A stretch of 64,000 bases of DNA, taken from positions 1,264,001-1,328,000 of the forward strand of contig NZ_CP016359.1 of NCBI RefSeq assembly GCF_001951155.1. The letters run 5' to 3'. A model generated the notes under the pieces. The model did not search any database and had not been told where the DNA came from. It worked only from the letters and a program-made list of their open reading frames with translations. The DNA comes from Christiangramia flava JLT2011. GTDB taxonomy: Bacteria; Bacteroidota; Bacteroidia; Flavobacteriales; Flavobacteriaceae. This document shows positions 7,629 to 25,426 of the stretch, one piece after another; positions within the stretch are counted from its first letter, which is position 1, and each line of letters opens with the position of its first letter. A program made the translations under genes and the position numbers.

Positions 7629-8613
7629 ATTCTACATGGAATTCTTTCAGCAATCCTTTTTCTCTCTGGTTGGGCACTTCAGAGATCAGCACATAATCTC
7701 CCGGTGTGAGTTCAGCAGTAAAATAACCATTTTTACCAGCAGCCATTTCCTGCATTCCTGCTATAAATTTGAAGCCTTTGGGCGCAGGAGTCATCAAACC
7801 TTTAGGCGTACTCCAGTTTAGCCAGTTGGCAAGCGTATTGAGGTTAGCCTCCTTTTCCTTTCTCACCAGTTGTACGTCGTGCCCCACAAAATTCTCATGA
7901 ACTTTCTGATCTTCGAAATACACTTTAAAAACTTTCTTACCAGTGCTTGGATTTCCTTCGAGTAGCATACCATTTTCGCTGCCAATGGAAATCTGATAAT
8001 CGGCTTGAGGTTCCGGAATATCACTGAGACTGTCTTTTACAATAATCTCGTCCACCATCCCTTCTACGGAATGAAAACGGCCATTAGGCATCTTCATATA
8101 ACACTCGATCGCGTAAATACCGGGATCCAGTTTGAGGGTAGATTGTGTAGTCGATTTCGGGGAAACCAAACCCGTCCCGCCATAAAATTGTACCTGACTA
8201 AACCATTCGGGTAATTTCCCAAAGGCTTCCATTGCCTTATCCATATTGCCTTCCATTATATAGTCCATACCTTCCTGGAAAGCCGGCCCCACTTCTTTTT
8301 CAGTATCTTCCAGGCGCTTGCCTTCGGGATATTTTTCAAAAACGATAAAATGCGTCTCGTTGCTGTTGTTCTTATAAACTATAGGGTTCCAGCCGCTCAG
8401 TAAAGTATCCTTCGGAAGAATAAATTCCATGGAATTGGTGACGATCTTAAAATTCTCAGCAGCTTTTTGTCTCGGAAGTTCCTGCTTCGCCAGGGAATCG
8501 CTGGCTGAGGTTTCCAGGTTCTTTTTGGATTCGTTTTTACAGGAGAATAAGGCGAAAGTCAGGCATGCACAAACCCAGGCTGAGGCTGTCCCTCTTAATA
8601 GTGAAGAAATCAT
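7627..8613 (-). CDS. Lipoprotein with two tandem beta-sandwich (cupredoxin-like) domains
   Basis: A 328-residue predicted lipoprotein: the signal segment ends in FALFSC25, followed by KNESKKN. The mature part seems to hold two related beta-sandwich units. The first (about residues 55-190) contains HFIVFEKYPEGK and STLKLDPGIYAIECYMKMP; the second (about 210-328) contains HDVQLVRKEKEAN and YFTAELTPGDYVLISEVP. The LxPGxYxxxxxxP strand is characteristic of copper-free cupredoxin-like folds. No complete type-1 copper site (His-Cys-His-Met) was found, so metal binding is not supported. It is convergent with the cytochrome c gene. Function unknown. Confidence 0.7.
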   Translation of the reverse strand: MISSLLRGTASAWVCACLTFALFSCKNESKKNLETSASDSLAKQELPRQKAAENFKIVTNSMEFILPKDTLLSGWNPIVYKNNSNETHFIVFEKYPEGKRLEDTEKEVGPAFQEGMDYIMEGNMDKAMEAFGKLPEWFSQVQFYGGTGLVSPKSTTQSTLKLDPGIYAIECYMKMPNGRFHSVEGMVDEIIVKDSLSDIPEPQADYQISIGSENGMLLEGNPSTGKKVFKVYFEDQKVHENFVGHDVQLVRKEKEANLNTLANWLNWSTPKGLMTPAPKGFKFIAGMQEMAAGKNGYFTAELTPGDYVLISEVPNQREKGLLKEFHVE

Positions 8614-8837
8614 AATTTTTGGTTTTAGTTAGTTGCCACAAAGGAGGTTGCGCATGGATGGGCATTTTAAATTTCTTAAAATTCCAGCAGTATTCCTAAC
8701 AATCTTTCAAGTTTCTGAAGATCAGCTTTTCCATTTCCTTAATTAATTGTCAAAATTTGAAACAAGTATCTCAATAGATATAAATTTAAGGATCAGTTTA
8801 GTACATTTAAGATTCCAGCTTTTTTAAAAAAGATTCT

Positions 8838-10781
8838 ATGCTTAAGAAAACACGAGTGGTCATTGAAGATATACAGCCCGTTATCAACTGCGGGGAATTT
8901 GCAGTAAAGCGGGTCATTGGAGAGATCGTTACGGTGCAGGCAGCTATTTTTGGAGATGGTCACGATATTATTCAGGCCGCTATTCAGTATAAACATCAAA
9001 CTCAAAAAAACTGGAAAGAGGTGCGTATGCGCCCGACTGAAAATGATCACTGGCAGGGCCACTTCAGCGTGGAAAAACAGGGCGATTATTTTTTTAAAAT
9101 CGAAGCCTGGGAGGATCATGGTCTCAACTGGCGACATGGGATCATCAAAAAGATCGAAGACGGCCAGTTTGTTAAATCTGAATTGCTGGAAGGAGCTGAA
9201 ATCCTCAAACCGCTACTGAAAAAATGCACGAAACAGGAGGCGGTTTTCATCAAAAAAGCGATTGCTGATTTTACTGACGAAGACCGAATGGACGAAGCCT
9301 GCGCCACCTGTACCGATCCATATCTTGAAGAAATTCTATTGAAGTACCCACATAAGGCTGTTCCTAATGAAAGCCAGGAATATCCGGTTTACGTAGACCG
9401 CAAAAAGGCACTTTTCAGCACCTGGTATGAATTCTTTCCCAGGTCAGCTTCGAGTGAGGCGGGGAAACACGGTACTTTTAAAGACTGTGAAAACATTTTG
9501 CCGCGTGTTGCCGAGATGGGGTTTGACACGCTCTATTTCCCGCCCGTGCATCCTATTGGAGAAGTGAACCGCAAGGGAAAGAACAACGCGACCGACGCTG
9601 CTCCGGGAGATGTAGGTTCGCCCTGGGGAATTGGTTCGAAAAAAGGCGGGCACAAAGACATCCACCCCGAGCTTGGCAGTTTAAAAGATTTTAAAAACCT
9701 GGTCAAAAAAGCCCAGGATATGGGAATTGAAGTGGCTATGGACTTTGCCTTACAGGCAGCCCCAGATCATCCCTATGTGCAGGAGCATCCAAAATGGTTC
9801 CGCTGGAGACCCGATGGAACGATACAATATGCTGAAAATCCGCCGAAAAAATACCAGGATATTCTGCCAATTTTCTTCGAATCTGAAGAATGGAAAAAGA
9901 TGTGGCAGGAATTCCTCGATATTGTTCTGTACTGGATCAGGGAAGCAGGCATCAAGGTTTTCCGGGTAGACAATCCGCATACCAAGCCTTTCTATTTCTG
10001 GGGCTGGCTTATTTCCGAAGTCAAAAAGAAATATCCGGATACGCTCTTTCTTTCCGAAGCCTTCACGCGGCCAAAGATCATGGCGCAACTGGCCAAACAG
10101 GGGTTTACACAATCCTACACGTACTTTACCTGGCGAAACAACAAACACGAGATCACTGAATATGTGAACGAGCTTACCAGGAGTGACTTGCGGGAATATT
10201 TCAGGCCAAATTTCTGGCCAAATACGCCCGATATCAATCCATACGCGCTGCAAGGTGCCAATGAATCGATGTATATGAATCGCTATTTTATGGCCGCAAC
10301 GCTGAGTTCCAATACCGGTATTTACGGACCCGTTTTTGAATTCATGATCTCTGATGCCGTTCCCGGAAAAGAAGAATATCATGATTCTGAAAAATACCAG
10401 ATCAGGCACTGGGACTGGCAGGCTGAAAATAAACTGATGCGCATTATCGCGAGGATCAATAAAGCGAGAAAAGAAAATGCTTCGCTACAGCAAACCAATA
10501 ATATCAATTTTTGCGAGATCCATAACGATGCCCTGCTTGCCTATCACAAATATGATGACCAGCGCGAGAATCATACACTCATGATCGTGAGCCTCGACCC
10601 CTATTATTCGCAAAAAGGTCATGTGCAGGTACCTCGGCACCAACTGGGATTGAACGACGGCCAGTCAATTACCGTGGAAGACCTGGTTACCGGAAATTCC
10701 TATAATTGGAACGATGAATGGTCTTTCGTGGAATTACATCCCGGTATGCCCTTTCACCTCTTCCGAATCCATAAAAATTAA
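8838..10781 (+). CDS. glgE: Alpha-1,4-glucan:maltose-1-phosphate maltosyltransferase
   Basis: GlgE moves maltose from alpha-maltose-1-phosphate onto the non-reducing end of an alpha-1,4-glucan, extending glycogen-like polymer in the cytoplasm. The 647 residues hold an N-terminal DUF3416-type sandwich (TVQAAIFGDGHDIIQAAI near residue 34) and then a GH13 barrel. The catalytic nucleophile is D378 in FRVDNPHTKP, the acid/base is E407 in LFLSEAFTRP, and a third conserved aspartate, D465, sits in NTPDINP. FRVDNPHTKP, with HTKP in place of the amylase sequence, is the GlgE hallmark. It is the first gene of a tight run with maltokinase (5-bp gap) and glgB. Length and motifs are normal. Confidence 0.95.
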   Translation: MLKKTRVVIEDIQPVINCGEFAVKRVIGEIVTVQAAIFGDGHDIIQAAIQYKHQTQKNWKEVRMRPTENDHWQGHFSVEKQGDYFFKIEAWEDHGLNWRHGIIKKIEDGQFVKSELLEGAEILKPLLKKCTKQEAVFIKKAIADFTDEDRMDEACATCTDPYLEEILLKYPHKAVPNESQEYPVYVDRKKALFSTWYEFFPRSASSEAGKHGTFKDCENILPRVAEMGFDTLYFPPVHPIGEVNRKGKNNATDAAPGDVGSPWGIGSKKGGHKDIHPELGSLKDFKNLVKKAQDMGIEVAMDFALQAAPDHPYVQEHPKWFRWRPDGTIQYAENPPKKYQDILPIFFESEEWKKMWQEFLDIVLYWIREAGIKVFRVDNPHTKPFYFWGWLISEVKKKYPDTLFLSEAFTRPKIMAQLAKQGFTQSYTYFTWRNNKHEITEYVNELTRSDLREYFRPNFWPNTPDINPYALQGANESMYMNRYFMAATLSSNTGIYGPVFEFMISDAVPGKEEYHDSEKYQIRHWDWQAENKLMRIIARINKARKENASLQQTNNINFCEIHNDALLAYHKYDDQRENHTLMIVSLDPYYSQKGHVQVPRHQLGLNDGQSITVEDLVTGNSYNWNDEWSFVELHPGMPFHLFRIHKN

Positions 10782-10786
10782 GATCC

Positions 10787-12433
10787 ATGTCAACCAAAGC
10801 ACCAACGCAAATGCAGGAAACCGAGTTCAACTTTAAATGTGACTGGAATGGAGCCTTTGAAGACCCTGAATTCATCAAGACCTTCAGTACCGAAATACTG
10901 GAGAACTACATCCTGAAAAAACGTTGGTATGCGGGAAAATCGAGTACGCTCAAATACATTGAAATCGTAGATTATTTCGAATTAAAATCTGAAAAAAACA
11001 CTTATTACGGTGTGCTGTTCGAGGTGAACTTCAGCGAAGCCTTTTTTCAGGATTATTTTATTCCGCTGAGTTTTATCAACCAGGAAAAAGATGCGCTGGA
11101 AACCAGTACGGTCATTGCACCGGTTAGTTTTAAAAATGAGGAAGGTTTTTTGATAGATGCCATCCATATTGAAGATTTTCGCAAGCTCGTATTTGAGAAT
11201 ATGATGCAATATTCTGCGGAAGCGGCCCCGGCAAAGACCGTTTTTCACCGCTCAGAGACCACGCATCCCGTTGCCTACGAATCTTCCCGTTTTATGGGTG
11301 GCGAACAAAGCAATACTTCGATCATTTTTAATGATTCCATGGTGATGAAATTCTTCCGAAGGATTTATACCAGCAAAAACCCTGATTATGAGATCGTTCG
11401 TTTTATTACTGAAAAGACCGATTTCAAGAACATTCCCGGATACGTGAGCAGCATGAACGTGGCTTTTGAAAATGGCGAGACCGTCACGCTGGGGCTGATG
11501 CAGGAATTGATCGAAAATGAAGGCGATGCCTGGAAATATATGCTGAATGAGCTCAAGGGTGTTTTTGCCAATTTGGAACGCAAAAAAATCAAAGCCTCCA
11601 GGTTGCCGAAGATCAGGATGTACCAGCGACAGCCCATCAATACCATTCCGCCGGAGATTATCGATTTTGCCGGTCTCAATCTTTTTCTGAAGGTCGCCAA
11701 GCTCGCGGTAAGAACTGCGGAAATGCACGTGGCTCTAGGTAGTGATATGCAGGACACCGCCTTCACCCCTACCAAATATAATGGAGATTATGCCGTATGG
11801 TTGAAAAACAGGCTCATCTACATGTTCCAGAACCGGCTGAACACCATTGAAAACAATATGCACAAGCTGGACGGCGAGGCACTGGAACTGGCCAAAGAAT
11901 TCTTGGATCGAAAAAAAGAAATTCGGGAACATTTTCTCAATTTTAACTGGACACGCATGAAAAGCGAGCGCATCAGGATCCACGGGGACTATCACCTGGG
12001 GCAGGTCCTTGTTGCCAACGACGATTTTTTCCTGCTGGATTTCGAAGGCGAACCAGAATCAACGATACAGGATCGCAAGGTCAAGCAACCGCCGCTGAAG
12101 GATGTGGCTGGCATGTTCCGCTCCTTTCACTATGCCATTTACTCCAGTATTTTTAATAGCGATGAAGAATTCAAGGTATCGCAGGATGAACTTTTTGAAG
12201 CCGGCGAAGTATTATACCGCTACATGATCGGGGTTTTTATGGAAACTTATGTAGATAAGGTACAGCGGGAGAATCTAAATATCGGTTATAAGCAGGAAAT
12301 CGAATTTTTACTCGATTACTGCCTGCTTGAAAAAGCCGTTTATGAATTGGGATATGAACTGAATTCCAGGCCGAGATGGACTATCATCCCGCTGCGTGGT
12401 ATTGCCAGTATCCTGAAAAACAAAATAACTTAA
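10787..12433 (+). CDS. Maltokinase
   Basis: A 548-residue kinase of the Mak/Pep2 family, which phosphorylates maltose with ATP to give maltose-1-phosphate, the donor for GlgE. The C-terminal lobe shows the phosphotransferase motif HGDYHLGQ (from H399) and the metal-binding D418-FEGEP, both close to the aminoglycoside-phosphotransferase pattern. The N-terminal cap domain contains KKRWYAGKS, typical of maltokinases. Many maltokinases are fused to trehalose synthase, but this one is free, and no treS gene lies in the window. It is 5 bp after glgE and 7 bp before glgB, so the three are almost certainly one operon. Confidence 0.92.
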   Translation: MSTKAPTQMQETEFNFKCDWNGAFEDPEFIKTFSTEILENYILKKRWYAGKSSTLKYIEIVDYFELKSEKNTYYGVLFEVNFSEAFFQDYFIPLSFINQEKDALETSTVIAPVSFKNEEGFLIDAIHIEDFRKLVFENMMQYSAEAAPAKTVFHRSETTHPVAYESSRFMGGEQSNTSIIFNDSMVMKFFRRIYTSKNPDYEIVRFITEKTDFKNIPGYVSSMNVAFENGETVTLGLMQELIENEGDAWKYMLNELKGVFANLERKKIKASRLPKIRMYQRQPINTIPPEIIDFAGLNLFLKVAKLAVRTAEMHVALGSDMQDTAFTPTKYNGDYAVWLKNRLIYMFQNRLNTIENNMHKLDGEALELAKEFLDRKKEIREHFLNFNWTRMKSERIRIHGDYHLGQVLVANDDFFLLDFEGEPESTIQDRKVKQPPLKDVAGMFRSFHYAIYSSIFNSDEEFKVSQDELFEAGEVLYRYMIGVFMETYVDKVQRENLNIGYKQEIEFLLDYCLLEKAVYELGYELNSRPRWTIIPLRGIASILKNKIT

Positions 12434-12440
12434 CACAATT

Positions 12441-14348
12441 ATGAAAAAGGAAGTACAGGTACATTCGCTGTTTTCAGAATTCGATATATATCTTTTCAAG
12501 TCGGGTAAACATTTCAGGCTCTACGAAAAATTTGGTGCACATCCCATGGAACTTCAGGGCGAGGAAGGAGTTTATTTTGCAGTGTGGGCTCCTTCGGCTA
12601 AAAATGTTTCCGTGATCGGTGATTTTAATTACTGGCTTGAAGGCGAGCACCCCTTAAATGTTCGCTGGGATGAAAGCGGCATCTGGGAAGGTTTTATTCC
12701 CGGGGTAAAGCTTGGCGATAAATACAAATACAAGATCCAGTCCAGCGTTAACGATGCTAAACTGGAAAAAGCCGATCCATATGCCCTGAAATGCGAACGG
12801 CCACCAAATACGGCTTCCATCGTCTGGGACCTCAACTATAAATGGAAAGACAAAAAATACCTGGAGTCACGGAAAGAAACAAACAGCCTGGATAAGCCAT
12901 TTTCGATCTACGAAGTCCATCTGGGTTCGTGGAAAAGAAAAGTGGAAGAAAACAGGGCCTTAAGTTACCTGGAGCTGGCCCAGGAACTGGTGTCATACGT
13001 CAAAGAATGTGGTTTCACTCACGTGGAATTTATGCCTATTATGGAGTATCCGTATGATCCCTCGTGGGGTTATCAGCTCACCGGTTATTTCGCACCCACT
13101 TCCCGTTTTGGGGATCCACAGGATTTTATGGCGCTGATCGACGCTTTTCACAAAGCCGGAATTGGTGTGATCCTCGACTGGGTGCCTTCACATTTTCCAG
13201 AAGACAAGCATGGTCTTGGAATGTTTGACGGGTCGCATCTTTATGAGCATCCCGATCCACGGAAAGGCTATCATCCAGACTGGAAAAGTCTTATTTTCAA
13301 TTACGGAAGAAATGAAGTGCGTTCCTTTCTCATCAGCAACGCGGTCTTCTGGCTGGATAAATATCATGCTGATGGTCTCCGGGTAGACGCGGTGGCCTCC
13401 ATGCTTTACCTGGACTATTCCAGGGAAGACGGCCAGTGGGAGCCGAATGAACACGGCGGAAGAGAAAACCTGGATGCCATACAATTCGTCCGGGAACTCA
13501 ATACGGAAGTTTACCGAAGTTTTGAAGGGGTACAGACCATTGCAGAAGAATCTACCTCTTTCCCCATGGTTTCCAAACCTGTTGATATCGGCGGTCTCGG
13601 TTTCGGAATGAAATGGATGATGGGCTGGATGCACGACACACTGGAATATTTCAAAAAAGACCCGATCTACCGGCAATACCACCAGAACGATATCAGTTTC
13701 AGTATGACCTATGCGTTTACTGAAAATTTCACCCTTCCTTTAAGCCATGATGAAGTAGTATATGGCAAGAAATCGATCTTAGGCAGGATGCCTGGCGATG
13801 AATGGCAGCGTTTTGCCAACCTGAGGTTACTATATTCATATATGTTTACCCATCCGGGTACCAATTTGTTGTTCATGGGAAGTGAATTTGGGCAGCATGA
13901 AGAATGGAAATTCAGCGGAAGCCTGGATTGGCATTTGTTGGAATATGATCTTCACAAAGGAGTGAAGGAGACCATTACGCAGCTGAACAGCCTGTACAAA
14001 AAACAACCTGCACTGCACGAAAAACAGTTCGAAGCCCGCGGTTTTGAATGGATTTCGTATGATGATGCCCAGAACTCCGTATTAGCTTATATGAGAAAAG
14101 GTGAAAACGAGAAGAAAGACCTGCTCGTAGTTTGCAATTTTACGCCGGGGATTTTAGAAAATTACCAGATCGGCGTACCTCGCAAAGGAAAACTCAAGGA
14201 AATTTTTAATTCTGACGCGAAAGAATTAGGCGGCTCTGGGGTTAAAAATGAACAGGTTAAAACTGCACCGGAAAGTTGGCACGGGCGCGAACACTCAGTA
14301 AAAATCACTATTCCGCCACTGGCAGCGGTTGTTTTTCAAATTTTATAA
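12441..14348 (+). CDS. glgB: 1,4-alpha-glucan branching enzyme
   Basis: GlgB makes the alpha-1,6 branches of glycogen by cutting and re-attaching alpha-1,4 chains. The 635 residues hold an N-terminal CBM48 module (YFAVWAPSAKNVSVIGDFNYW) and a GH13 barrel with PIMEYPYDPSWGYQLTGYFA, nucleophile D316 in GLRVDAVASMLYLDYSR, acid/base glutamate in IAEESTSFP (E369/E370), and the third site H436-D437 in LPLSHDEVVYGK, followed by a C-terminal beta domain. The extra N1 module of long branching enzymes is absent. Its place directly after glgE and maltokinase fits the GlgE route, in which GlgE and GlgB work together. Confidence 0.96.
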   Translation: MKKEVQVHSLFSEFDIYLFKSGKHFRLYEKFGAHPMELQGEEGVYFAVWAPSAKNVSVIGDFNYWLEGEHPLNVRWDESGIWEGFIPGVKLGDKYKYKIQSSVNDAKLEKADPYALKCERPPNTASIVWDLNYKWKDKKYLESRKETNSLDKPFSIYEVHLGSWKRKVEENRALSYLELAQELVSYVKECGFTHVEFMPIMEYPYDPSWGYQLTGYFAPTSRFGDPQDFMALIDAFHKAGIGVILDWVPSHFPEDKHGLGMFDGSHLYEHPDPRKGYHPDWKSLIFNYGRNEVRSFLISNAVFWLDKYHADGLRVDAVASMLYLDYSREDGQWEPNEHGGRENLDAIQFVRELNTEVYRSFEGVQTIAEESTSFPMVSKPVDIGGLGFGMKWMMGWMHDTLEYFKKDPIYRQYHQNDISFSMTYAFTENFTLPLSHDEVVYGKKSILGRMPGDEWQRFANLRLLYSYMFTHPGTNLLFMGSEFGQHEEWKFSGSLDWHLLEYDLHKGVKETITQLNSLYKKQPALHEKQFEARGFEWISYDDAQNSVLAYMRKGENEKKDLLVVCNFTPGILENYQIGVPRKGKLKEIFNSDAKELGGSGVKNEQVKTAPESWHGREHSVKITIPPLAAVVFQIL

Positions 14349-14412: not shown

Positions 14413-16836
14413 ATGATTACCAATACAGAACTGGAATATAAAGGGAATCTCTACCCCTCGGGATTGATTTCTTACGAGCATGACCAGGACACCATCAATT
14501 TTATCTCGAAAAATGGTGTTCGCCTTCAGGTGACGGTTTTGCGGGATAATATGTTGCGTTTTCGCTATGCGACCAATGGGATTTTTGAAAATGATTTTTC
14601 CTACGCGATAGACGAAGACAACCTGCACGGTTTTAGCCATCTGGATGTTTCCGAAGATGAAACGCATATCATCATAACTACTGAAAAAATCATCTGCAAG
14701 GTTGCCAAAGACGACCTGAGAGTAGGCACGTATGAGCTTAACGGTAAACCGATCCTGGAAGATGAACAGGGATTTCACTGGGAAGAAACCTTCGAATTCG
14801 GCGGAAACTTTGTGAAAATGAGCAAAATGTCACGCGATCAGGAAAATTATTTTGGGCTTGGAGATAAACCCACCAATTTTAACCTGAAAGGCAAAAGGCT
14901 CAGCCTATGGAATACCGATCAGTATGCCTTTGCAAAAGATACTGCAGAATTATACAAAGCTGTGCCATTTTACATGGGCCTTCATGGTAATTCTGCCTAC
15001 GGAATTTTCTTCGACAATACCTTTAAAACTCATTTTGATTTTTGCCACGAACGCCGCAACGTGACCAGTTTCTGGGCAGATGGAGGCGAGATGAACTATT
15101 ATTTCATCTATGGCCCTCAAATGAGCGATGTACTCACTTCGTATACTGATCTTACTGGGAAACCGGAACTTCCGCCTATGTGGGCATTGGGATTCCACCA
15201 GTGTAAGTGGAGTTACTACCCGGAAAGCAAGGTAAAGGAGATCGCCTCCAAATTCCGGGAACTGAATTTTCCCTGTGACGCGATCTACCTGGACATAGAT
15301 TATATGGATGGGTTTCGCTGTTTCACCTGGAACAAGGAATATTTCCCGGACCCCAAAAGAATGGTGAAGGAACTGGAAAGCGATGGTTTTAAAACCGTTG
15401 CCATCATTGACCCTGGAATCAAAATAGACCTGAATTATTCGGTTTTTAAGGAAGCGCTTGAAAACGATTATTTCTGCCGCCGTGCAGACGGACCTTATAT
15501 GAGAGGAAAAGTGTGGCCCGGAGAGTGCTATTTTCCAGATTTTACCCGCCCTGAAGTGCGCGAATGGTGGAGTAGTTTGTACCGTGAAATTATAGGCGAG
15601 ATCGGTGTTAAAGGTATCTGGAACGATATGAACGAACCCGCAGTGATGGAAGTTCCCGGGAAGACTTTCCCGCTGGACGTTCGCCATGATTTTGATGGGC
15701 ATCCCTGCAGCCACCGCAAGGCTCATAACGTTTACGGAATGCAAATGGCACGGGCTACCTATGAAGGAGTTAAAAAATTCAATTTTCCGAAACGACCTTT
15801 CATCATCACGAGGGCTAATTATTCCGGAGGGCAGCGCTACACCTCTACCTGGACCGGCGACAATGTGGCCACCTGGGAACACCTTTGGTTGGCAAACGTA
15901 CAGATCCAGCGCCTGTGTATGAGCGGGATGAGTTTCGCCGGATCAGATATTGGCGGTTTTGCCGAACAACCTTCCGGAGAACTTTTCACCCGCTGGCTGC
16001 AATTGGGTATTTTCCACCCTTTCTGCCGCGTACATTCCTCTGGCGATCATGGGGAACAGGAACCCTGGTTCTTTGGGGAAGATGTACTGGAAATTACCAG
16101 GAAATATGTAGAGTTGCGATACCAGTTACTGCCGTACCTCTACACCGCTTTCCAGAAGTATGTGGAAGAAGGCACGCCAATTCTGAAACCACTGGTTTAT
16201 TACGATCAGGAAGATGTCCAGACGCATTACCGTGCTGATGAATTCATCTTCGGAAACCAGATTTTAGTGTGTCCTGTCCAGGAACCTAACGTTCAGGGTC
16301 GCAGGATGTATATTCCACGGGGAAAATGGTACAACTTCTGGAATGACAAACTGGTCACCGGAGGCAAGGAAATGTGGGTAGATGCACCTTTGGATATCAT
16401 TCCTATTTATATCAAGGAAGGAGCGATCATACCAAAATACCCGGTTCAGCAATATGTTGATGAGGTAAAAATGGAAGAAATGTCACTGGACATTTACTAC
16501 AAAATTGGTAAGGAAAATTCTGAATTTTATGAAGATTCTCATGATGGTTACGAGTACCGCCAGGGCATTTACAGCCACCGTACTTTCAAATTTACAGGGA
16601 AAGAAGGCGAGATGATCATTCAGCAGCATAAACAGGGGAAATTCTCTGCTCCCTATACCACCTTCAAATTAAAATTCCACGGAATGCCTTTCGAGATCAA
16701 ACGGGTATTCTTTGAAAATGAAGAAGTGAACGTGGAAGATCTGCACTATGACAAAGAAAACCAGACAATGATCGTGCATAAAGATTTTTCTGAACTCCAT
16801 ATCGTGGGAAATTCGAACGGGAATACGGCTGAATAA
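14413..16836 (+). CDS. GH31 family alpha-glucosidase
   Basis: An 807-residue glycoside hydrolase of family 31, which removes terminal alpha-linked glucose or related sugars. The N-terminal galactose-mutarotase-like sandwich and the GFHQCKWSYYPES entry to the barrel are typical. The nucleophile is D405 in WNDMNEPAVME and the acid/base is D483 in TWTGDNVATW. No signal peptide is visible, so it should act in the cytoplasm, in line with a role in trimming or recycling the alpha-glucan made by the preceding genes. It lies 64 bp after glgB and may be co-transcribed. A strong terminator follows. Exact specificity (maltose, isomaltose, alpha-xyloside) cannot be read. Confidence 0.93.
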   Translation: MITNTELEYKGNLYPSGLISYEHDQDTINFISKNGVRLQVTVLRDNMLRFRYATNGIFENDFSYAIDEDNLHGFSHLDVSEDETHIIITTEKIICKVAKDDLRVGTYELNGKPILEDEQGFHWEETFEFGGNFVKMSKMSRDQENYFGLGDKPTNFNLKGKRLSLWNTDQYAFAKDTAELYKAVPFYMGLHGNSAYGIFFDNTFKTHFDFCHERRNVTSFWADGGEMNYYFIYGPQMSDVLTSYTDLTGKPELPPMWALGFHQCKWSYYPESKVKEIASKFRELNFPCDAIYLDIDYMDGFRCFTWNKEYFPDPKRMVKELESDGFKTVAIIDPGIKIDLNYSVFKEALENDYFCRRADGPYMRGKVWPGECYFPDFTRPEVREWWSSLYREIIGEIGVKGIWNDMNEPAVMEVPGKTFPLDVRHDFDGHPCSHRKAHNVYGMQMARATYEGVKKFNFPKRPFIITRANYSGGQRYTSTWTGDNVATWEHLWLANVQIQRLCMSGMSFAGSDIGGFAEQPSGELFTRWLQLGIFHPFCRVHSSGDHGEQEPWFFGEDVLEITRKYVELRYQLLPYLYTAFQKYVEEGTPILKPLVYYDQEDVQTHYRADEFIFGNQILVCPVQEPNVQGRRMYIPRGKWYNFWNDKLVTGGKEMWVDAPLDIIPIYIKEGAIIPKYPVQQYVDEVKMEEMSLDIYYKIGKENSEFYEDSHDGYEYRQGIYSHRTFKFTGKEGEMIIQQHKQGKFSAPYTTFKLKFHGMPFEIKRVFFENEEVNVEDLHYDKENQTMIVHKDFSELHIVGNSNGNTAE

Positions 16837-16911: not shown

Positions 16912-19900
16912 TCAACGCGACTTATCAACCGAACCGGTCGGTGAATAGCCATAAAACTTTTTGAAGGAACTGTAGAACAATTTAGGACTCGAAAACCCTG
17001 ATTTATAAGCTACTTCCATACTATTGTATTCATTTTGATCCATCAGCTCACGAGCATAGTTCAACCTGGTGAACTCCATGAAATCCTGTGGAGAAAGGTT
17101 CACAAGGTTTTTCAGTTTCATGAACAGGGCGTTACTGCTGATGCCAACCGCCGCACTGAGATCATGCACTGTAAAATTCTCATTCTTGATGTTCTCCAAA
17201 ATGATCTCCCCCAGGTTCTGAATGAATTTTTCATCGTTCGCGCTTCTGAACTCGGGTGTTTTATCTTCCACGTAAGCTTTGACGTAATTGCTTCGAAGCT
17301 GTTGCTGCCACGCCAGTTTCTCACTGATCTTGGTGAGCAGCAGGTTCACATCTATCGGCTTCCTGATGACTTCTGAAAAACCGTCCAGCTGTTCTTCGCT
17401 CAATTGTACCTCGCCATCGGCAATCATGAAAATATTGATATGATTCAGACCAATATTGCGTTTCAGCATTTTTGCGAGCTGAAAGGCATTCATATCTGGC
17501 AGCACACTTGCGGAAATAATGATATCCGGGAAGATCATCCCTGCCTTTTCCATCCCTTCCTCCGCGGTTGCGGCCTGGTAGACCTGGCAATATTTTCCAA
17601 TATTCCGAAGCAATAATTCCCTGATTTTAGCATCGTTTTCGATCACCAGGATCTTGCTGTCGCTATAATTGGCAATAGCCTTCGGAAATTTGGTCTTCGG
17701 GTTCTTTTTCTGCTTTTCTGCCAGGAAAACCTGCGCAGCCCTGGATGGAACCTTGCGGTAATCCTGTTTTCGGTTCTTCAGGATCACCGTAAACGTGGAG
17801 CCTTCATTTTTCTCCGTATCGTAACTGAAGCTTCCGCCGCTGTTCTGGGCCAGTTCACGTGCCTGGATCAGGGAAGCCAGGCCATTAGCATCACGGTATT
17901 TCCTACCCTTCGGCATACTGGTCATACGATCCAGCGTTCGCTGGTGGGATTCGGGTACACCACGGCCATTATCAGTGATCTGTAATTTGAGATCGCCCAC
18001 GCTGGTTTCGATCAAATTCACGATGATCTTCCCATGTTCATGGCAATATTGTGCGCTGGCAGACACCAGACCGAAAATGATCTTATCCAGTACCTCAAGG
18101 TTATAGAAAAATGCTTCTTCACCCCATTGATCATTGATACTGAATTCCAGTTTTTTATCTTCGAACAAAGGTTTCATATCCTTCAGCATGACGCTGAGGT
18201 GTTTGTGCATATCTATTTTTGAAATTTCATAAACAGATTCTTCGTAATTGAAATTCAAAATCTGCCTGAAAAGATCGTCAAACCGGGCTGCATACCGCTG
18301 AAGATCTTCCGGAGAATTTTCAGCTGCTTCGGAAATTTTGCTGAGTGAATGCACAGCGCTTTCCACTGGTTTGCCGAATTCCTGCTTCAGTTTTTCCCGA
18401 AGTTCCGCTTTCGCCTGGCGATCAGCACTTCTAGAACGCTTCACAAAGACAATCACGAAAATGGCGATCATTGCCAGCACGCTGATTCCCATGAAGAGAT
18501 ACACGGTACTGATGGTTCCGCCGGTATCGGCCACGCGAATATCCAGCAATTTTGGGTTACTCCAGCCTCCTTCGCTAATCCTGGATCGAACCATAAAAGT
18601 GTAATCTCCAGGTGGCAAACTGGCATAACTCACGGAGTTCAATTTCGTTGGTTTGGTCCAGTCATCATCAAAATTAGCCAGTTTCCAGCTATATTCAATC
18701 CCTTCCGGATCCAGATTGGAACGCCCCCTGAACTTCAGCTGGAAGGCTGCCTCTTCCTGAATTTCGACCTCACCTAAACCGGCAAGATCAATTTTCCCGG
18801 CTTCTTCCCTGGTTTTGGAAGGCAGAATCATTTTTTCCAGCGTCAGCTCTGGTTTAAATTCCTGCTGCGCGAGCAGTTCTTTCGGTTTAAAAATATTGAG
18901 CCCTTTAGTGCTGCCGAACATGAGGTCTTCTTTTCGCAGCTTCGTAATGCCTGTGGTAATTTCATTAGTTGATAGCCCGTTTAATTCTGAAAACAACCTC
19001 AGATCTTTAGTGTTCTGGTTATAATAAGCGAGTCCGTTATCTGTCGTAATCCAGATCGCACCTTCATGCTCCCAGTCCACGCCCAAAATATTGTTCGAGG
19101 GCAGGCCGTCACTGGTCGAAAGTTGCTGCGTGCGCTCCTTGTCGAAATCATATAGAATGAGACCGGCACCTTCCGTCGCAAAAAGTCCAATTCCCTGGTT
19201 GGTAATCTGGAGATCATTCATCCCATAATAGACCATATTTGCCTTCGCAGTGAGCTTGGTGAGGTCTGTGATCCTTCCGGTGTACGGATTGAGCGAGTGG
19301 ACTCGGGATTTCGTGGCAACGATGAGTTGCTTCGGCCCCAGTTCTGAGATGGCTTCCACGTTCTTGATCGGGTAACTTTTGAAGGTATTATCTGGTTTGA
19401 TCTGGGTGAGGTACCCGTCTTTGCCTCCTATCCATATATTTTTATGACCATCTATAAAAACGGCATTGGCCGCCTGGATAGGCGTTTTGTACAGTGCGTC
19501 CACGGAATAATGGGCCCGAAGCAATGTGTGAATATTGACCTTATATACGCCGTCATCTGCCGTGGCAATCCACATATGATCATCCACGCTGGCCATATCA
19601 GTGATCTTATCAGGATCTTTGATATTCCTGGTATAATTCAGGTTTTCTATATGCCGCCAACGATCGGTTTCCGGGTTCCAAATACTTAGCCCTTTTGCAG
19701 TACCAACCCAGAGATTCCCTTCACTGTCTTTTTCTGAAGCGGTTACAAAATCATCTCCCAGGCTGGAATATTTCGCAGGATCATGAGTGACGTTGGCCAC
19801 GACATTTCCTGAAAAATTCTGCAAATACAAACCTTTATTAGAAACCATCCAAAGCAGATTCTGGTTGTCCAGGCAGGTGGCATAAACATTATTAGGGTAA

Positions 19901-20766
19901 CCGGCCGATTCTTTTTTAAGCAATTCGAGTTTATTGTTCAGCACCACCACCCCGGCTCCGCGAGTGGAAACAATGATTTCCTGGTTAAACAATTGCAGAG
20001 AAGTGATCTCCGAACTGGACACCTCGTAAGGCAGGTATGCTCGCTGAAATTTTTTGAAATCGGGATCGGTTTTATATAAACCGCTATCTTTTGTGCCGAA
20101 GATGATCGCATCGGGCAAGGAAAGAATGCTGGTGATCTGGAGATTCTGGTAATATCCCATATCGATCTTATTGAATTTCCCCGATTTCCGGTCGATAGTC
20201 AGGACTCCGTTGGGGCCTGCAAAAACAATCTGATTCCCATGAAGTACGATCCCAGCGGCCATGGTATTTTCAGAAAGAAAACGAGAAAGTCCAAAATCAT
20301 CTTTTTCTGAGTTGGTATTCAACTTATAAACACCATTTTCCGCAGCGATCCACAGCTGGTTGCCGGCATCCTCCCGGAGCGCATAAATTTTTCCGGTCAC
20401 TCCACTCACAAAACGGAAAATGCTTTGCCCGTTTTCGAGCACCGCAATTCCGGCAGAGCCTGCCAGCCATACGTTTCCCTGAGAGTCAGTATACGTTTCC
20501 AGATATTCCCCGCCTACTTCCTTGGGGATTCCCATAAATTTGTTGAAAACCTCGGTGTCTCCGGAATTGTATTTAAGAATTTTAACCGCTGTGGTGATCC
20601 AGAGATTTCGCCTGGAATCCTGCTGAATATGCACTTCATCAGCCTTGATAAAAGGCTCGATCGCATTAACTTTTTGAACTGACCTTGTATTCTGCCCGGT
20701 TAGCGTACCGGCAATTCCGGAAATAAAAACCAGAACCAACAGAAATCTCCATCTAAAATGCCCCAA
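16912..20766 (-). CDS. Hybrid two-component regulator with degenerate kinase and receiver
   Basis: A 1284-residue one-protein regulator of the Bacteroidota HTCS class. After a signal peptide (ends near GTLTGQ) come two periplasmic propellers (about 30-680), a Y_Y_Y domain (about 685-745, with SYASLPPGDYTFMVRSR), a membrane span (about 747-768), a kinase-like region, a receiver-like domain (about 1037-1155) and an AraC-type HTH (last 100 residues). In typical members the kinase motif is SHEFRTPL; here it reads KQEFGKPV with Q795 where the phospho-histidine should be. The N-box asparagines are also lost (IIFGLVSASAQYC). In the receiver the phospho-acceptor position of IISDVMMP is alanine (IISASVLP, A1086). 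The frame is open throughout, so it is not a pseudogene. It faces the glucan cluster and may regulate it without phosphotransfer. Confidence 0.92.
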   Translation of the reverse strand: MGHFRWRFLLVLVFISGIAGTLTGQNTRSVQKVNAIEPFIKADEVHIQQDSRRNLWITTAVKILKYNSGDTEVFNKFMGIPKEVGGEYLETYTDSQGNVWLAGSAGIAVLENGQSIFRFVSGVTGKIYALREDAGNQLWIAAENGVYKLNTNSEKDDFGLSRFLSENTMAAGIVLHGNQIVFAGPNGVLTIDRKSGKFNKIDMGYYQNLQITSILSLPDAIIFGTKDSGLYKTDPDFKKFQRAYLPYEVSSSEITSLQLFNQEIIVSTRGAGVVVLNNKLELLKKESAGYPNNVYATCLDNQNLLWMVSNKGLYLQNFSGNVVANVTHDPAKYSSLGDDFVTASEKDSEGNLWVGTAKGLSIWNPETDRWRHIENLNYTRNIKDPDKITDMASVDDHMWIATADDGVYKVNIHTLLRAHYSVDALYKTPIQAANAVFIDGHKNIWIGGKDGYLTQIKPDNTFKSYPIKNVEAISELGPKQLIVATKSRVHSLNPYTGRITDLTKLTAKANMVYYGMNDLQITNQGIGLFATEGAGLILYDFDKERTQQLSTSDGLPSNNILGVDWEHEGAIWITTDNGLAYYNQNTKDLRLFSELNGLSTNEITTGITKLRKEDLMFGSTKGLNIFKPKELLAQQEFKPELTLEKMILPSKTREEAGKIDLAGLGEVEIQEEAAFQLKFRGRSNLDPEGIEYSWKLANFDDDWTKPTKLNSVSYASLPPGDYTFMVRSRISEGGWSNPKLLDIRVADTGGTISTVYLFMGISVLAMIAIFVIVFVKRSRSADRQAKAELREKLKQEFGKPVESAVHSLSKISEAAENSPEDLQRYAARFDDLFRQILNFNYEESVYEISKIDMHKHLSVMLKDMKPLFEDKKLEFSINDQWGEEAFFYNLEVLDKIIFGLVSASAQYCHEHGKIIVNLIETSVGDLKLQITDNGRGVPESHQRTLDRMTSMPKGRKYRDANGLASLIQARELAQNSGGSFSYDTEKNEGSTFTVILKNRKQDYRKVPSRAAQVFLAEKQKKNPKTKFPKAIANYSDSKILVIENDAKIRELLLRNIGKYCQVYQAATAEEGMEKAGMIFPDIIISASVLPDMNAFQLAKMLKRNIGLNHINIFMIADGEVQLSEEQLDGFSEVIRKPIDVNLLLTKISEKLAWQQQLRSNYVKAYVEDKTPEFRSANDEKFIQNLGEIILENIKNENFTVHDLSAAVGISSNALFMKLKNLVNLSPQDFMEFTRLNYARELMDQNEYNSMEVAYKSGFSSPKLFYSSFKKFYGYSPTGSVDKSR

Positions 20767-21010
20767 ATCTTAAATATTGAATGATGATTTCCTGTAAATT
20801 AAAAAAACATCGAGGCAAACGATCCCGACTCTAAAAGTTTTAAAACGAATTTATTAAGATGATATTAACAGAGAAAAACGAACGAATCGCGGCAAACCAT
20901 CAGTAAAATCAGTCGGTTTCAAAAACATCAGTTTTTTCGTACAAGTAGTAAATTATGAAAACGCCTGATTTTCAGCCCCTGAAAAATTCCGAAGCAGCCA
21001 TTCAGCGGTC

Positions 21011-22112: not shown

Positions 22113-23174
22113 TTATCCCGAAACGGCCTTTTTGGGACTATAATATTTAGCCTTGAGATAAAAGGAGAATCTCACCAGCAAGATAAGCGCCGGCACTTCC
22201 ACCAGTGGCCCAACCACGCCGGCAAAAGCCTGCCCTGAATTCAACCCGAAAACTGCAATAGCTACAGCGATCGCCAGTTCAAAATTGTTCCCGGCGGCGG
22301 TAAACGAAATGGCTGCATTTCGGTCATATTCCACTCCGCGGGCTTTGCTAATGAAAAAGCCAACTATGAACATGACCAGGAAATAGATCAATAAGGGAAT
22401 CGCGATCAATAGCACGTCAAACGGAATTTTTACGATCATTTCTCCCTTTAAACTGAACATCATGATGATCGTTGCCAGCAACGCGATGAGGGTGACTGGC
22501 GAAACTGTGGGCAGAAACTGCTTTTCATACCACAGCTTTCCTCGCCAGGCGGTGAGTAGGAGTCGGCTCAAAATTCCTAATAAAAAGGGAATACCAAGAT
22601 AAATCAGCACACTTTCAGCAATCGTGGAAATTGGAATATTGACGATCGCTCCTTCAAAGCCCAGTAAAGGCGGCAGTTTGGTGATAAATAACCACGCGTA
22701 AAAACTGTAACCAAAAACCTGGAAAATACTGTTCAGGGCCACCAAACCGGCTCCATATTCGCTACTCCCTTCCGCCAGGTCATTCCACACCAGCACCATG
22801 GCAATGCAGCGTGCCAGGCCAATTAAGATCAAACCCACCATATACTCAGGATGGTCCTGGAGAAAGATCAAGGCTAGAGCGAACATCAGTACCGGGCCTA
22901 TAATCCAGTTGAGGAGTAACGAGATTCCGAGGGTTTTGACATCTTTAAAAACTTTGGGTAACAGGGTGTAATCTACTTTTGCCAGTGGTGGATACATCAT
23001 CAATACCAGCCCGACCGCGATAGGAATATTGGTCGTTCCCTGGCTGTAAGAGTTCATATTTTCAGCAAATCCAGGGAAAAAATAGCCGAGGCCCACTCCT
23101 GTAAGCATGGCCAGAAAGATCCATAAAGTAAGGTAGTTGCTGAGGAAATCCAGCTTTTTAATATCAGTTTTCAT
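22113..23174 (-). CDS. acr3: ACR3 family arsenite efflux transporter
   Basis: A 353-residue inner-membrane exporter with about ten spans that pumps arsenite out of the cell. The conserved cysteine of the ACR3 family is present as C123 in [18 protein letters not shown], and the C-terminal half has the family segment [20 protein letters not shown] with the equally conserved glutamate. It is the last gene of the ars operon, and its start overlaps the arsenate reductase gene by 11 bp. The usual length and all key residues are present. Confidence 0.95.
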
Positions 23175-23793
23175 ATAGCCTGGCTTTTACCTGCTGAAAA
23201 ACATACAGCATTTCTGTTGCAATCTGATTGCTGCGTTCCTGATAATGCCTGGCTTCCTCGCTGCTGCCATCTGAGATCTTCGGATCTTCGAAGGTCATTT
23301 TCAGGCGAATGGAAGCGGAAGGAATAAAAGGGCAATTTTCATCTGCATCGGCACAGGTCATGATCGCAGCAAAATTTTTGGGATTAAATGGGTGATCGAA
23401 TTCTTTGGAAAATGCAATAATTGGCAGCTGATTTTCGCCATATCGAATACTGAAAATCGGGTTTTCACCATTGCCTAGTTCAGCAATTTCGAAACCCGAA
23501 TGCTGTAAGCTCGAAATTACCGATTGATACACGGCGGTCGCTTCAGTCCCACCAGAATAACATTCGATCTTCGGAAGTTCCAGCCAGGCGGCGATCGTTT
23601 GTGCCCAAATCTGAGCAAAATGACTCCTTCTGGAATTATGAGTGCAGATAAAATTCAGTCGAACAGCTTCTTCCGAAGCTATTTGAGAGACCATATGCTC
23701 TATAAATACTTGCAGGATTTCCTGTCTTTCCGGAGTAATTTCCGCAGTATCCAGTGCGCTTAAAAAATCTTCGATCTTCTTAAAAATTCTCAT
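23164..23793 (-). CDS. arsC: Thioredoxin-type arsenate reductase (LMW phosphatase fold)
   Basis: This reduces arsenate to arsenite for export by the next gene product. The 209-residue protein has the low-molecular-weight phosphatase P-loop CX5R as C50-THNSR-R56 and, further on, C145 and C152 in [10 protein letters not shown], which match the spacing of the Cys82/Cys89 pair of the thioredoxin-coupled ArsC class. A DP motif (FEDPKISDG) follows. An N-terminal helical extension of about 45 residues precedes the fold, as in many Bacteroidota members labelled protein-tyrosine-phosphatase. It overlaps the GNAT gene by 4 bp and acr3 by 11 bp. Confidence 0.9.
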
Positions 23794-24284
23794 GATTTGA
23801 TGCCTATGATTTTACTTCTTCTTTCCATCAGGATATTGTCGCGCCAGATGCCATTCAGCCTGCCAATCTTTTCCCGGTAGCCTACCACCCGAAATCCGCA
23901 TTTCTCATGCAGTTTTAAACTGGCGGTATTTTCCCGCATCATGGCGGCATTTAGTGTCCAAATTTCATTGTCCTCGCTAATGCGAATCAATTCCTTCAGC
24001 AACAGTTCCCCATATTTTTTTCCTCTATTTTCGGAACTCACATACACGCTCACTTCGGCCACTCCGCGGTAAACGCAACGGTCGCTCACCGGTGAAAGCG
24101 TTGCCCATCCCAGCATCTCGCCATGATCATACAGGGCAATCCTCCCGAAAGGTTTTCTGCTGGCATCCCATTTTTCAAATGAAGGAGTTTCAGTCTCAAA
24201 GGTTGCCATTCCCGTGGCAATACCTTGCTGGTAAATACGCCGAAAATCGTTAAAATTCTTACGGGATATCGGTCGAAATTCCAT
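23790..24284 (-). CDS. GNAT acetyltransferase of the ars operon, ArsN/PAT-like
   Basis: A GNAT-fold N-acetyltransferase. From the start chosen here it has 164 residues: FRPISRKNFNDFRRIYQQGI at the N-terminus, a central VAEVSVYVSSENRGKKYGELLL with the acetyl-CoA-binding R/K-x-x-G/K-x-G turn, and the SLKLHEKCGFRVVGYREKIG C-terminal pattern shared with phosphinothricin acetyltransferases. In arsenic operons such enzymes (ArsN1) acetylate arsinothricin, an organoarsenical antibiotic; that role is inferred from context. The start at 24284 is one base after the DUF6428 stop codon; a longer reading from 24311 would overlap that gene by 26 bp and adds nothing conserved. Confidence 0.82.
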   Translation of the reverse strand: MEFRPISRKNFNDFRRIYQQGIATGMATFETETPSFEKWDASRKPFGRIALYDHGEMLGWATLSPVSDRCVYRGVAEVSVYVSSENRGKKYGELLLKELIRISEDNEIWTLNAAMMRENTASLKLHEKCGFRVVGYREKIGRLNGIWRDNILMERRSKIIGIKS

Positions 24285-24285
24285 T

Positions 24286-24744
24286 TTAGCAACAGCCTGA
24301 CCCCGGTGCACACGACGTAGTTAATTCTGCCAGATTTTTCTTTGGTTTCTCCACTACCCCACATTTTTCCTGCGCGAGACAGGTCGTGGCTTTATTGATC
24401 AGCAGGAAATCAGCACCGTCAAAATCCAGGTCATATTTACCAATTGTGGAGGACTGGTATTCCACTTCGATCTCCCAGTCACCCAATTCCAGCACTTTTT
24501 CGGAAAGCTCGATGATGTGCAGCAACTTCTCGGGATGCAGCCGGTGATCATAATCGTTTGCTTCCCATAGCTGAAAACTGATTTTGGTTTCTTCGCGAAG
24601 CGTTCCGCCGCAATCGATAAATTTCTTAGCGATCTTACCAATTTCGGTTACATGAAAATGCCTTGGCACGAGATTTCCGTCAGGCAGTTTGAAGGCAATG
24701 CATTCCAGTCCTGCCAATTCTTTTTTAATTTCTGAAAGTTTCAT
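24286..24744 (-). CDS. DUF6428 family protein of the ars operon, cysteine-rich tail
   Basis: A 152-residue cytoplasmic protein that I place in DUF6428, a family I recall next to arsR and arsC in Bacteroidota. The core is mixed (ECIAFKLPDGNLVPRHFHVT, then KISFQLWEANDYDHRLHPEK, then WEIEVEYQSSTIGKYDLDF). The tail carries five of its cysteines: C in TTCLAQEKCG and a terminal SCAPGSGCC. Those thiols and the HFH segment could bind As(III) or another metal, but no activity is known. It is the first gene after arsR, with its own ArsR-type palindrome 3 bp before its ATG. Confidence 0.8.
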   Translation of the reverse strand: MKLSEIKKELAGLECIAFKLPDGNLVPRHFHVTEIGKIAKKFIDCGGTLREETKISFQLWEANDYDHRLHPEKLLHIIELSEKVLELGDWEIEVEYQSSTIGKYDLDFDGADFLLINKATTCLAQEKCGVVEKPKKNLAELTTSCAPGSGCC

Positions 24745-24746
24745 TT

Positions 24747-24762
24747 ATCGGTATTTTACGAT
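24747..24762. promoter_or_regulatory. Second ArsR-type operator, before DUF6428
   Basis: The bases ATCGGTATTTTACGAT carry the same ATCG...CGAT half-sites, spacing and TTACGATTAA flank as the site before arsR. The centre is less symmetrical. It ends 3 bp before the DUF6428 start codon, inside the 36-bp gap after arsR. Confidence 0.55.
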
Positions 24763-24780
24763 TAATTGTTTTAAATTTTT

Positions 24781-25110
24781 TTAGCAGCAATCGGCTCCTT
24801 TAAAAGACTGGGATAGAAAAGCATTAAAATCAGCCTTCATACTTTCCCATTTCACGGCATCCAGGCAATAGCAAACCGATGTTCCTTCTATGGTTCCCCT
24901 GACCAGGCCAGCCTGTTTCAGTTCCTTCAAATGCTGGGAAACGGTTGCCTGCGCAAGACCAACTACTTCCACGATCTCACCGCAAACACAGGTATTGCGT
25001 TTGGCCAACTCCTGTAAGATCGCGATACGTGCGGGATGACCGAGCACCTTGGCCATATTGGCCAACCGGTTTTGTTCTGCTGAAAATTTTTGTGATTTTG
25101 TGACTCCCAT
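24781..25110 (-). CDS. arsR: ArsR family arsenic-responsive repressor
   Basis: A 109-residue winged-helix repressor of the ArsR/SmtB class. Helix region LGHPARIAILQELAKRNTCVCGEIV carries the arsenite-sensing CxC (C41, C43 from this start); the recognition helix is GLAQATVSQHLKELKQAGLV and the wing has RGTIEGTSVCYCL. The protein ends in ADCC, which could add thiol ligands. The start at 25110 is preferred because it places the near-perfect ATCG...CGAT palindrome 4 bp upstream, the same layout as before DUF6428. Starts at 25116 (inside the palindrome) and 25197 (inside a terminator hairpin) look less likely. It should repress itself and the four genes after it. Confidence 0.92.
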   Translation of the reverse strand: MGVTKSQKFSAEQNRLANMAKVLGHPARIAILQELAKRNTCVCGEIVEVVGLAQATVSQHLKELKQAGLVRGTIEGTSVCYCLDAVKWESMKADFNAFLSQSFKGADCC

Positions 25111-25114
25111 ATTC

Positions 25115-25130
25115 ATCGCAATATTACGAT
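25115..25130. promoter_or_regulatory. ArsR operator before arsR
   Basis: ATCGCAATATTACGAT is a near-perfect palindrome (14 of 16 positions symmetrical) directly before the arsR start. The half-site ATCG and the flank TTACGATTAA recur before DUF6428 at 24747, which supports binding by the same protein. Confidence 0.7.
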
Positions 25131-25160
25131 TAAAAAATGGTAACTTCAAAATGAGATAAT

Positions 25161-25191
25161 AAAAAAGGGCGCGATGGTCATCAGCACCCTT
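25161..25191 (-). terminator. Minus-strand intrinsic terminator in the arsR leader
   Basis: Read on the minus strand, AAGGGTGC and GCGCCCTT (plus positions 25184-25191 and 25165-25172) pair fully with one G-U pair around an 11-base loop, and a T-run follows. On the plus strand the same pair is a C-A mismatch, so it is directional. It sits about 50 bp upstream of arsR, so it either ends a transcript that begins further upstream or acts as an attenuator. Confidence 0.6.
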
Positions 25192-25426
25192 CATCATAAA
25201 CTATAAAAATATCCTTAGCGTTTGGTTTCGCTGCGCTGAAGATACGAAAATATCCAAGATTGGATGAGATTTAGCTAATCCCAGCTTTTTAGGAAGGCAT
25301 CTATTAAAATTAAGCATTAGAACGATCGATAAAATCATTGCTTCTATCTAGTGAATTTCCTTATTGGTATATAAGATTATTATTTCCGGAAACAGCGTCA
25401 TAAAATTTGTAGTCAAGAATTTGTTT
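25192..25426. other. Non-coding gap between arsR leader and tolC
   Basis: No gene is supported here. Between the leader terminator and the TolC start the DNA is AT-rich, with GGATATTTT occurring twice on the minus strand (about 25207-25250) and a small ATCCAA/TTGGAT hairpin near 25251-25264. These could belong to a short minus-strand transcript ending at 25161. No clear TAnnTTTG promoter was found in front of tolC. Confidence 0.4.

Follow-up and report, generated by a model that had tools for sequence, protein, structure and literature searches.

A hybrid two-component regulator without phosphorelay residues is kept intact across the genus Gramella/Christiangramia

Can a membrane-spanning regulator built like a two-component system still carry a signal when the residues that pass phosphate are gone? 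This question is raised by a gene of Christiangramia flava JLT2011, located in a stretch of 64,000 nucleotides of contig NZ_CP016359.1 (positions 1,264,001 to 1,328,000; hereafter the window, to which all coordinates refer). The gene (16912..20766, minus strand, as are all its parts) is an open reading frame (ORF) of 1284 codons without a stop, starting at a TTG that is found in frame at the same place in all 23 upstream rows reaching that far (24 were aligned, one slice being shorter). Its product displays the complete chain order of the hybrid two-component systems (HTCS) of Bacteroidota: a periplasmic beta-propeller region (residues 46-635, limits set by hand; 18862..20631), identified by Reg_prop matches and by alignment to the sensor structures 4a2l and 3v9f; a Y_Y_Y domain found by Pfam (685-745; 18532..18714); a single transmembrane (TM) helix at a hydropathy peak (about 751-775; 18442..18516); a dimerization and histidine phosphotransfer (DHp) domain, placed by alignment (777-848; 18223..18438); a catalytic and ATP-binding (CA) domain (849-1005; 17752..18222) and a receiver (REC; 1036-1152; 17311..17661), both placed by Pfam, alignment, and model; and an AraC-type helix-turn-helix (HTH) domain, placed by Pfam and model (1179-1277; 16936..17232). 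The one TM helix and the hydrophobic N terminus are as expected for the class, and the REC-HTH half aligns with 12aw_A, a “hybrid two-component system protein” (E 1e-30). Thus, the domain order that a preliminary description of the gene had called standard for Bacteroidota HTCS is borne out by Pfam, hydropathy, and models.

To this architecture correspond catalytic sites that have lost their defining residues. The H-box, which reads THEIKTPL in canonical relatives, is KQEFGKPV from residue 794, placing Q795 (codon 18382-18384) at the position of the phospho-His. The N-box region is IIFGLVSASAQYC at residue 896, with GLVSASAQYC instead of the canonical NLISNAIKYS and both Asn lost, at 899 and 903. 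The receiver reads IISASVLP from residue 1083, compared with IILTDLIMP, and A1086 (codon 17509-17511) stands at the position of the phospho-Asp. We then analyzed 24 genomes of the genus Gramella/Christiangramia (the names borne by relatives at 8 loci), including that of the window. Each carries one orthologue, full length and devoid of internal stops, and the same losses are present in all 24: the His position is occupied by Lys in 19 and Gln in 5; residue 899 by Ser in 22 and Gly in 2; residue 903 by Gly in 21, Ala in 2, and Ser in 1; and the Asp position of REC by Ala in 21, Thr in 2, and Gly in 1. Other receiver positions changed as well, Thr 1116 being Ala in 19, Thr in 4, and Val in 1, and the acid at 1044 being Asp in 1/24, so that the protein has a REC fold without active-site residues, as in pseudo-receivers, with Lys 1136 still present in 20/24. 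Parts of the CA domain are retained, including D932, G934, and G936 of the G1 box, P938, and G962 (24/24 each), while residue 964, the second Gly of the G2 box, has changed in every copy. H806, which the preliminary description had named as a possible substitute for the missing His, was rejected, as it is His in 2 of the 24 orthologues. The reported residue losses and the intact frame are therefore confirmed and strengthened at the level of sequence, and a local sequencing error does not account for them.

Profile searches give a consistent picture. In the window protein, Pfam recognizes Reg_prop, Y_Y_Y, HATPase_c, and HTH_18/HTH_AraC, the receiver falls below the cut-off (27.3 vs. 30.2 bits), and no HisKA match is found at E<=10, whereas HisKA was matched in all four canonical relatives scanned. 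Across the 24 DHp-CA sequences of the genus, HATPase_c is recognized in every one, and HisKA is absent among the 25 of 32 families listed, a scope within which a weak match to a single sequence is possible.

To place this pseudo-HTCS among its relatives, we searched 397 genomes of the family with the window protein (query P0001, E<=1e-100, two candidates scored per genome) and found 15 relatives outside the genus (28-33% identity), all of which keep the four residues. A survey of other HTCS genes (29 loci, of which 8 rows were dropped for low query coverage, leaving 21 rows and, because L129 is the same as L146, 20 genes) yielded canonical residues throughout, including in three genes of the window's own genome (L129, L130, and L155). 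The preliminary description had called the change unusual for the class; locally this is supported, since all 35 other HTCS genes examined are canonical, and a printed precedent for the His loss exists in BT4236, discussed below. Intermediates in other genera were not seen at the sensitivity of the searches used. With a DHp-CA profile (A2, E<=1e-40), 395 genomes of the order, with up to seven candidates scored per genome among the matches listed, gave three hits beyond the genus, all within the canonical 15; at E<=1e-35, 198 relatives gave one, again within the 15; and P0001 at E<=1e-60 found none in ten non-genus genomes, taken from the twelve whose GH31 matches are best, with G179 and G353 left out. 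One canonical-motif HTCS match (L144, G398:C2) contains an internal TAG and is possibly a broken copy.

Maximum-likelihood analysis of the cytosolic part (59 rows) groups the 24 genus copies in one clade (100/100). The tree was drawn with a midpoint root; when it is rooted on the branch leading to the other HTCSs, the pseudo-HTCS clade is nested in the canonical group, beside 13 of the 15 relatives, on a stem of 1.49 changes per site, and is thus an HTCS by descent. A single clade within a canonical set on a long stem suggests one old event, and the phosphorelay residues were probably lost once, anciently, at the base of the genus.

Purifying selection on DHp, CA, REC, and HTH has continued after the loss. 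Among 276 genus pairs, we used the 8 closest, with domain limits set by hand, to compare nonsynonymous with synonymous rates (dN/dS). The whole-gene ratio is 0.065-0.096, with 0.045-0.115 for CA, 0.057-0.136 for REC, about 0.04-0.09 for the propeller, and 0.02-0.14 for DHp (7 pairs, one with saturated dS being set aside). Mean pairwise identity over the 24 copies is highest in DHp (74.7%), followed by HTH (69.4), CA (66.2), REC (64.2), and the propeller (57.6), while the 15 canonical relatives show another order (HTH 77.3, REC 75.7, DHp 72.7, CA 61.4). When the same two genomes (G000 and G413) are compared, DHp, CA, REC, and HTH are 77, 57, 66, and 72% identical in the pseudo-HTCS, vs. 73, 62, 69, and 76% in a probable pair of canonical HTCS orthologues; on these sequences, any relaxation of the dead modules appears slight. 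From the TM helix to the HTH, the genus has settled on a new residue in 41 columns and has retained the old one in 85 (a column counting as fixed when at least 22/24 genus and at least 13/15 canonical sequences agree within their own group), indicating a protein that is re-constrained rather than free. The new residues include R1211S, T1212N, and Y1215F, which fall in what we take to be the region of the first recognition helix and suggest a changed DNA target. The preliminary description had argued for selection on a protein that signals without phosphotransfer, and this is supported by the conservation throughout the genus, by the low dN/dS of the dead modules, and by a nearly ordinary rate of change.

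The conservation of an intact protein across the genus without relay residues suggests that it signals by a change of shape alone. We favor, with somewhat more belief than doubt, a reading in which a hybrid regulator of the type serving polysaccharide utilization loci (PULs) was turned, at the base of the genus, into a membrane-anchored, phosphate-free transcription regulator resembling one-component systems. A ligand-driven conformational mechanism is plausible. The protein would be a constitutive dimer through DHp, which would account for DHp being best conserved despite its lost catalytic residue; a ligand at the propeller or Y_Y_Y domain would shift the TM/DHp coiled coil; and this shift would directly rearrange pseudo-CA, pseudo-REC, and HTH, so that the AraC domains are freed or presented, with REC acting as a mechanical or inhibitory lid. 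The kept G1 box makes a bound nucleotide possible. We are rather more hesitant about the fuller version of this reading, to which we give slightly less than even credence: that a transmembrane phosphorelay was turned once into a purely mechanical transmembrane transcription factor, fixed across the genus, whose pseudo-DHp, pseudo-CA, and pseudo-REC couple a sugar-type sensor allosterically to an AraC domain, with a receiver devoid of the switch helix alpha4.

Predicted structures agree in part with this reading. The REC-HTH model is of high quality (predicted local distance difference test, pLDDT, 92.5; predicted template modeling score, pTM, 0.87) and the REC model matches ordinary receivers, with a coil predicted where the receiver helix alpha4 belongs, a feature read from the model of the window protein alone. 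The DHp-CA model shows a helical hairpin and an ATPase fold, so that fold and residue loss are both present, and the predicted kinase inactivity is deduced from the residues. How the output could be gated is suggested by Gao et al. (PMC11253607), who proposed, from AlphaFold models and biochemistry of several Bacteroides thetaiotaomicron HTCSs, that an S/CHIP-DK motif keeps the AraC domain pinned to REC until phosphorylation, and that changes in this motif permit DNA binding without phosphate. In the genus, N1108, H1109, D1178, and K1217 are kept in 24/24 copies, D1178 and K1217 being our own placing of the D and K of the motif; the Asn at the first position is also found in 14 of the 15 canonical relatives. 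The kept His, Asp, and Lys together with a lost Pro, described below, fit a retained, re-tuned lid that opens by conformation, and they fit a leaky lid too.

We then looked for a DNA target. Upstream of the regulator lies a conserved element (20848..20872, minus strand), a candidate operator of its own promoter, whose core TTNATATCNTNTTNATAA (20851-20868) is present in all 24 upstream regions; given that the motif was built from the same regions, this count holds partly by construction, and independent support comes from the alignment and from the genome search, in which the C. flava genome has no second match at up to 1 mismatch. The 18-nt core takes the form CTGTTAATATCATCTTAATAA in the window, a near direct repeat of TTAATA with an 11-bp period, and the 25-nt block ends 81 nt upstream of the TTG. 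With as many as 3 mismatches allowed, 62 matches occur in the genome, compared with 39 for a reversed control, so that looser matches mean little. The exact core occurs once in each of 20 genus loci extracted for context (from 20 genomes, the window not counted), before the regulator, and once in a single canonical locus (L019, L098, and L133 are one place), inside an ORF of SusC size, which we took as chance. The HTCS sites described in print consist of direct repeats, and the mean distance between tandem sites is 21 bp (PMC3878776); given this spacing, an element with an 11-bp period is only a candidate HTCS site. On sequence grounds, the pseudo-HTCS likely binds this direct-repeat element upstream of its own gene.

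Several observations weigh against signaling by conformation. The DHp-CA model is of moderate quality (pLDDT 73.8), and its DHp helices are the weakest part (block means 49-63, hairpin end 44). The Pro of the lid motif is lost in 23/24 copies, which may leave a loose lid and a constitutive protein. REC trails HTH more in the genus (64.2 vs. 69.4%) than in canonical relatives (75.7 vs. 77.3%), which suggests that it has somewhat slipped, and in the G000/G413 comparison the pseudo-HTCS falls short of the canonical HTCS by 3-5 points in each of CA, REC, and HTH, making slight relaxation possible. The pairs used for dN/dS come from few close lineages, none of which includes the window copy. The nesting of the clade depends on its long stem, and the tree program flagged long branches. 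Finally, the regulator shares no element with the glucan genes that face it, its motif being absent before GlgE or GlgB; the best score upstream of GlgE is -22 bits, compared with 33.6 at its own site and 7.8 for the next best place in the window.

Two of these observations, the lost Pro and a conserved candidate site found only at the regulator's own promoter, speak for a constitutive DNA binder, a signal-free protein acting mainly as an autoregulator or repressor, with a sensor that is vestigial or merely positions it; changes in the lid motif of BT4124 indeed lead to phosphorylation-independent binding (PMC11253607). We regard this alternative as unlikely, since the sensor is intact in 24/24 copies and its low dN/dS is hard to explain if it is vestigial, and since N1108, H1109, D1178, and K1217 are kept in 24/24. 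Less probable still is a nucleotide-gated pseudokinase, in which the pseudo-CA would bind ATP or ADP without catalysis and the nucleotide would set the conformation, thereby joining energy and sugar signals. The five residues D932, G934, G936, P938, and G962 and the HATPase_c matches, all in 24/24 copies, speak in its favor; however, the N-box Asn, which holds Mg, is lost, and the second Gly of the G2 box is replaced throughout.

DivL and RetS have DHp-CA domains without normal kinase function and act on partner kinases, and chains of both (RetS, 6dk8 and 6dk7; DivL, 4q20) are among the 50 best fold matches of the DHp-CA model. Together with the conservation of DHp, this might suggest a RetS-like modulator that uses DHp to heterodimerize with a canonical HTCS or kinase, dampening its partner. 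We consider this very improbable, as ordinary active kinases fill most of the fold list and rank higher, the cytosolic part is far from the genome's other HTCSs in the tree, and the protein, in contrast to DivL and RetS, carries its own full AraC output domain. That phosphotransfer survives on other residues can be given hardly any weight: H856 and D1081 are conserved in 24/24 genus copies and D1091 in 22/24, but they lie outside the H-box and the Asp position, H856 and D1081 coexist with the true sites in 11 and 13 of the 15 canonical relatives, neither N-box Asn remains, and the acid D1044 is found in one copy. Sequencing error or gene decay was rejected as next to inconceivable, in view of 24 intact orthologues in one clade with dN/dS below 0.1 in the 8 closest pairs.

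The conformational reading finds partial precedents. SusR is a membrane-spanning Bacteroidota regulator of alpha-glucan genes that works without a phosphorelay and has no kinase or receiver remains; the pseudo-HTCS resembles it in being a membrane-spanning regulator predicted to work without a phosphorelay but retains both remains. SusR sites are direct repeats, and no other known transcription factor has a DNA-binding part significantly similar to that of SusR (PMC3878776). The protein is like the HTCSs BT4124 and BT4663 in domain order, sensor similarity (4a2l, 3v9f), the REC-AraC half (12aw_A), and a partly kept lid motif, and differs from them by lacking the phosphorelay residues, by a HisKA that is not recognized, and by not lying beside SusC/D. 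The closest printed case is BT4236 of B. thetaiotaomicron, an HTCS with Gln in the phospho-His place, as Q795 here, and with an altered lid motif; the authors propose that it works independently of phosphorylation (PMC11253607). In the sections consulted, it appears as a single gene mention, and the receiver Asp, N-box loss, or a conserved clade are not mentioned. Pseudo-receivers (PsRs) lack the Asp and keep the fold, as here, where the PsR shares one chain with a dead kinase; Asp is missing in 2.0% of receivers (3,111/152,269) and His in 0.9% of HisKA domains (722/76,471), and the on/off switching of bacterial PsRs was called a mystery in a 2025 review (PMC12632262). At the level of titles and abstract openings in the open-license literature, we found no HTCS reported without both His and Asp, and no report of this gene. 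Here, His, Asp, and N-box are all missing in one chain, across a genus and under selection. Because sensor, linker, lid, and output are in one protein, it offers a clean test of conformation-only signaling through a histidine-kinase scaffold, and the case also bears on which part of HTCS signaling requires phosphate.

We next examined the neighborhood. The regulator faces, on the plus strand, a GH31 alpha-glucosidase (14413..16836), which is its convergent neighbor in all 20 context loci; GlgB branching enzyme (12441..14348; 20/20); a maltokinase of the TreS C-terminal type, below the model's cut-off (10787..12433; 14/20); and GlgE maltosyltransferase (8838..10781; 13/20, one of the other seven loci being cut before GlgE). 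Six loci (L015, L057, and L059-L062) have GlgB, GH31, and the pseudo-HTCS without maltokinase and GlgE at this place, so that the regulator goes with GH31-GlgB and not with the GlgE pathway. Scanning of window ORFs on both sides revealed no SusC/D, and none of the ORFs there has the size of SusC. In marine bacteria, glg genes make storage alpha-glucan (PMC11093988). The preliminary description had proposed that the protein may sense a glucan; its neighbors are indeed storage-glucan genes (GlgE, maltokinase, GlgB) and GH31, but the link comes from synteny alone, and the conserved element lies upstream of the regulator rather than of the glucan operon. Based on gene order, the GH31-GlgB cluster is likely a target of the pseudo-HTCS. 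Upstream of GlgE, a block CTTAATTAATTGTCAAAA...AAACAAG is strongly conserved in 9 aligned regions (window 8578-8837; L009-L014, L016, and L066), out of 14 loci with GlgE, window included, the others being cut too short; it is a candidate binding site for a regulator of the GlgE operon and is unlike the pseudo-HTCS element.

As for the origin of the regulator, the gene after 13 of the 15 canonical relatives is an ORF as long as SusC (1054-1097 aa, assigned by size alone); in one such locus that was scanned, SusD, GH3, and sulfatase follow, and the other two relatives adjoin MFS/GH94 and sulfatase genes. These SusC-size ORFs point to a normal PUL regulator as the probable ancestor of the pseudo-HTCS. 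In g101 (two genomes), the genus whose GH31 is most similar, GlgB-GH31, a gap, and DUF4403-ACR3 occur in the order of the window without the pseudo-HTCS. In its place, between GH31 and DUF4403, lies a NUDIX-NrtR/AraR-type regulator (L113 7461-8210; L114 11768-12538), with a 122-124 aa ORF and, in one genome, an additional 196-aa ORF. Eight further loci from 6 genera have an M48 peptidase after GH31 in seven cases and a ThuA-domain protein in the eighth. Given these kin loci without the regulator, it was probably either acquired here by the ancestor of the genus or lost from kin.

Within the genus, two copies, L018 (G266) and L046 (G407), are 87-99% identical over residues 801-1280 in 80-residue steps, compared with 62-85% before. 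At the DNA level, they are 79-93% identical from the break into GH31 and 56-83% upstream, except for one 150-bp block at 100%. From this pattern, recombination seems to have replaced the sensor and upstream flank, joining them to the output half at DHp, near residue 800; we count this divergence in the sensor, and not in the output half, in favor of conformational signaling. Separately, residues ~1257-1284 (second HTH and C terminus) seem, as judged by eye, to have drifted from the AraC pattern in L018, L046, and L051-L054, further than in the other orthologues. On the other side of the regulator, DUF4403 adjoins an arsenic cluster (window 22113-25197) consisting of ACR3, a weak LMWP match, and an ArsR-type regulator, and a similar set lies by DUF4403 in g101.

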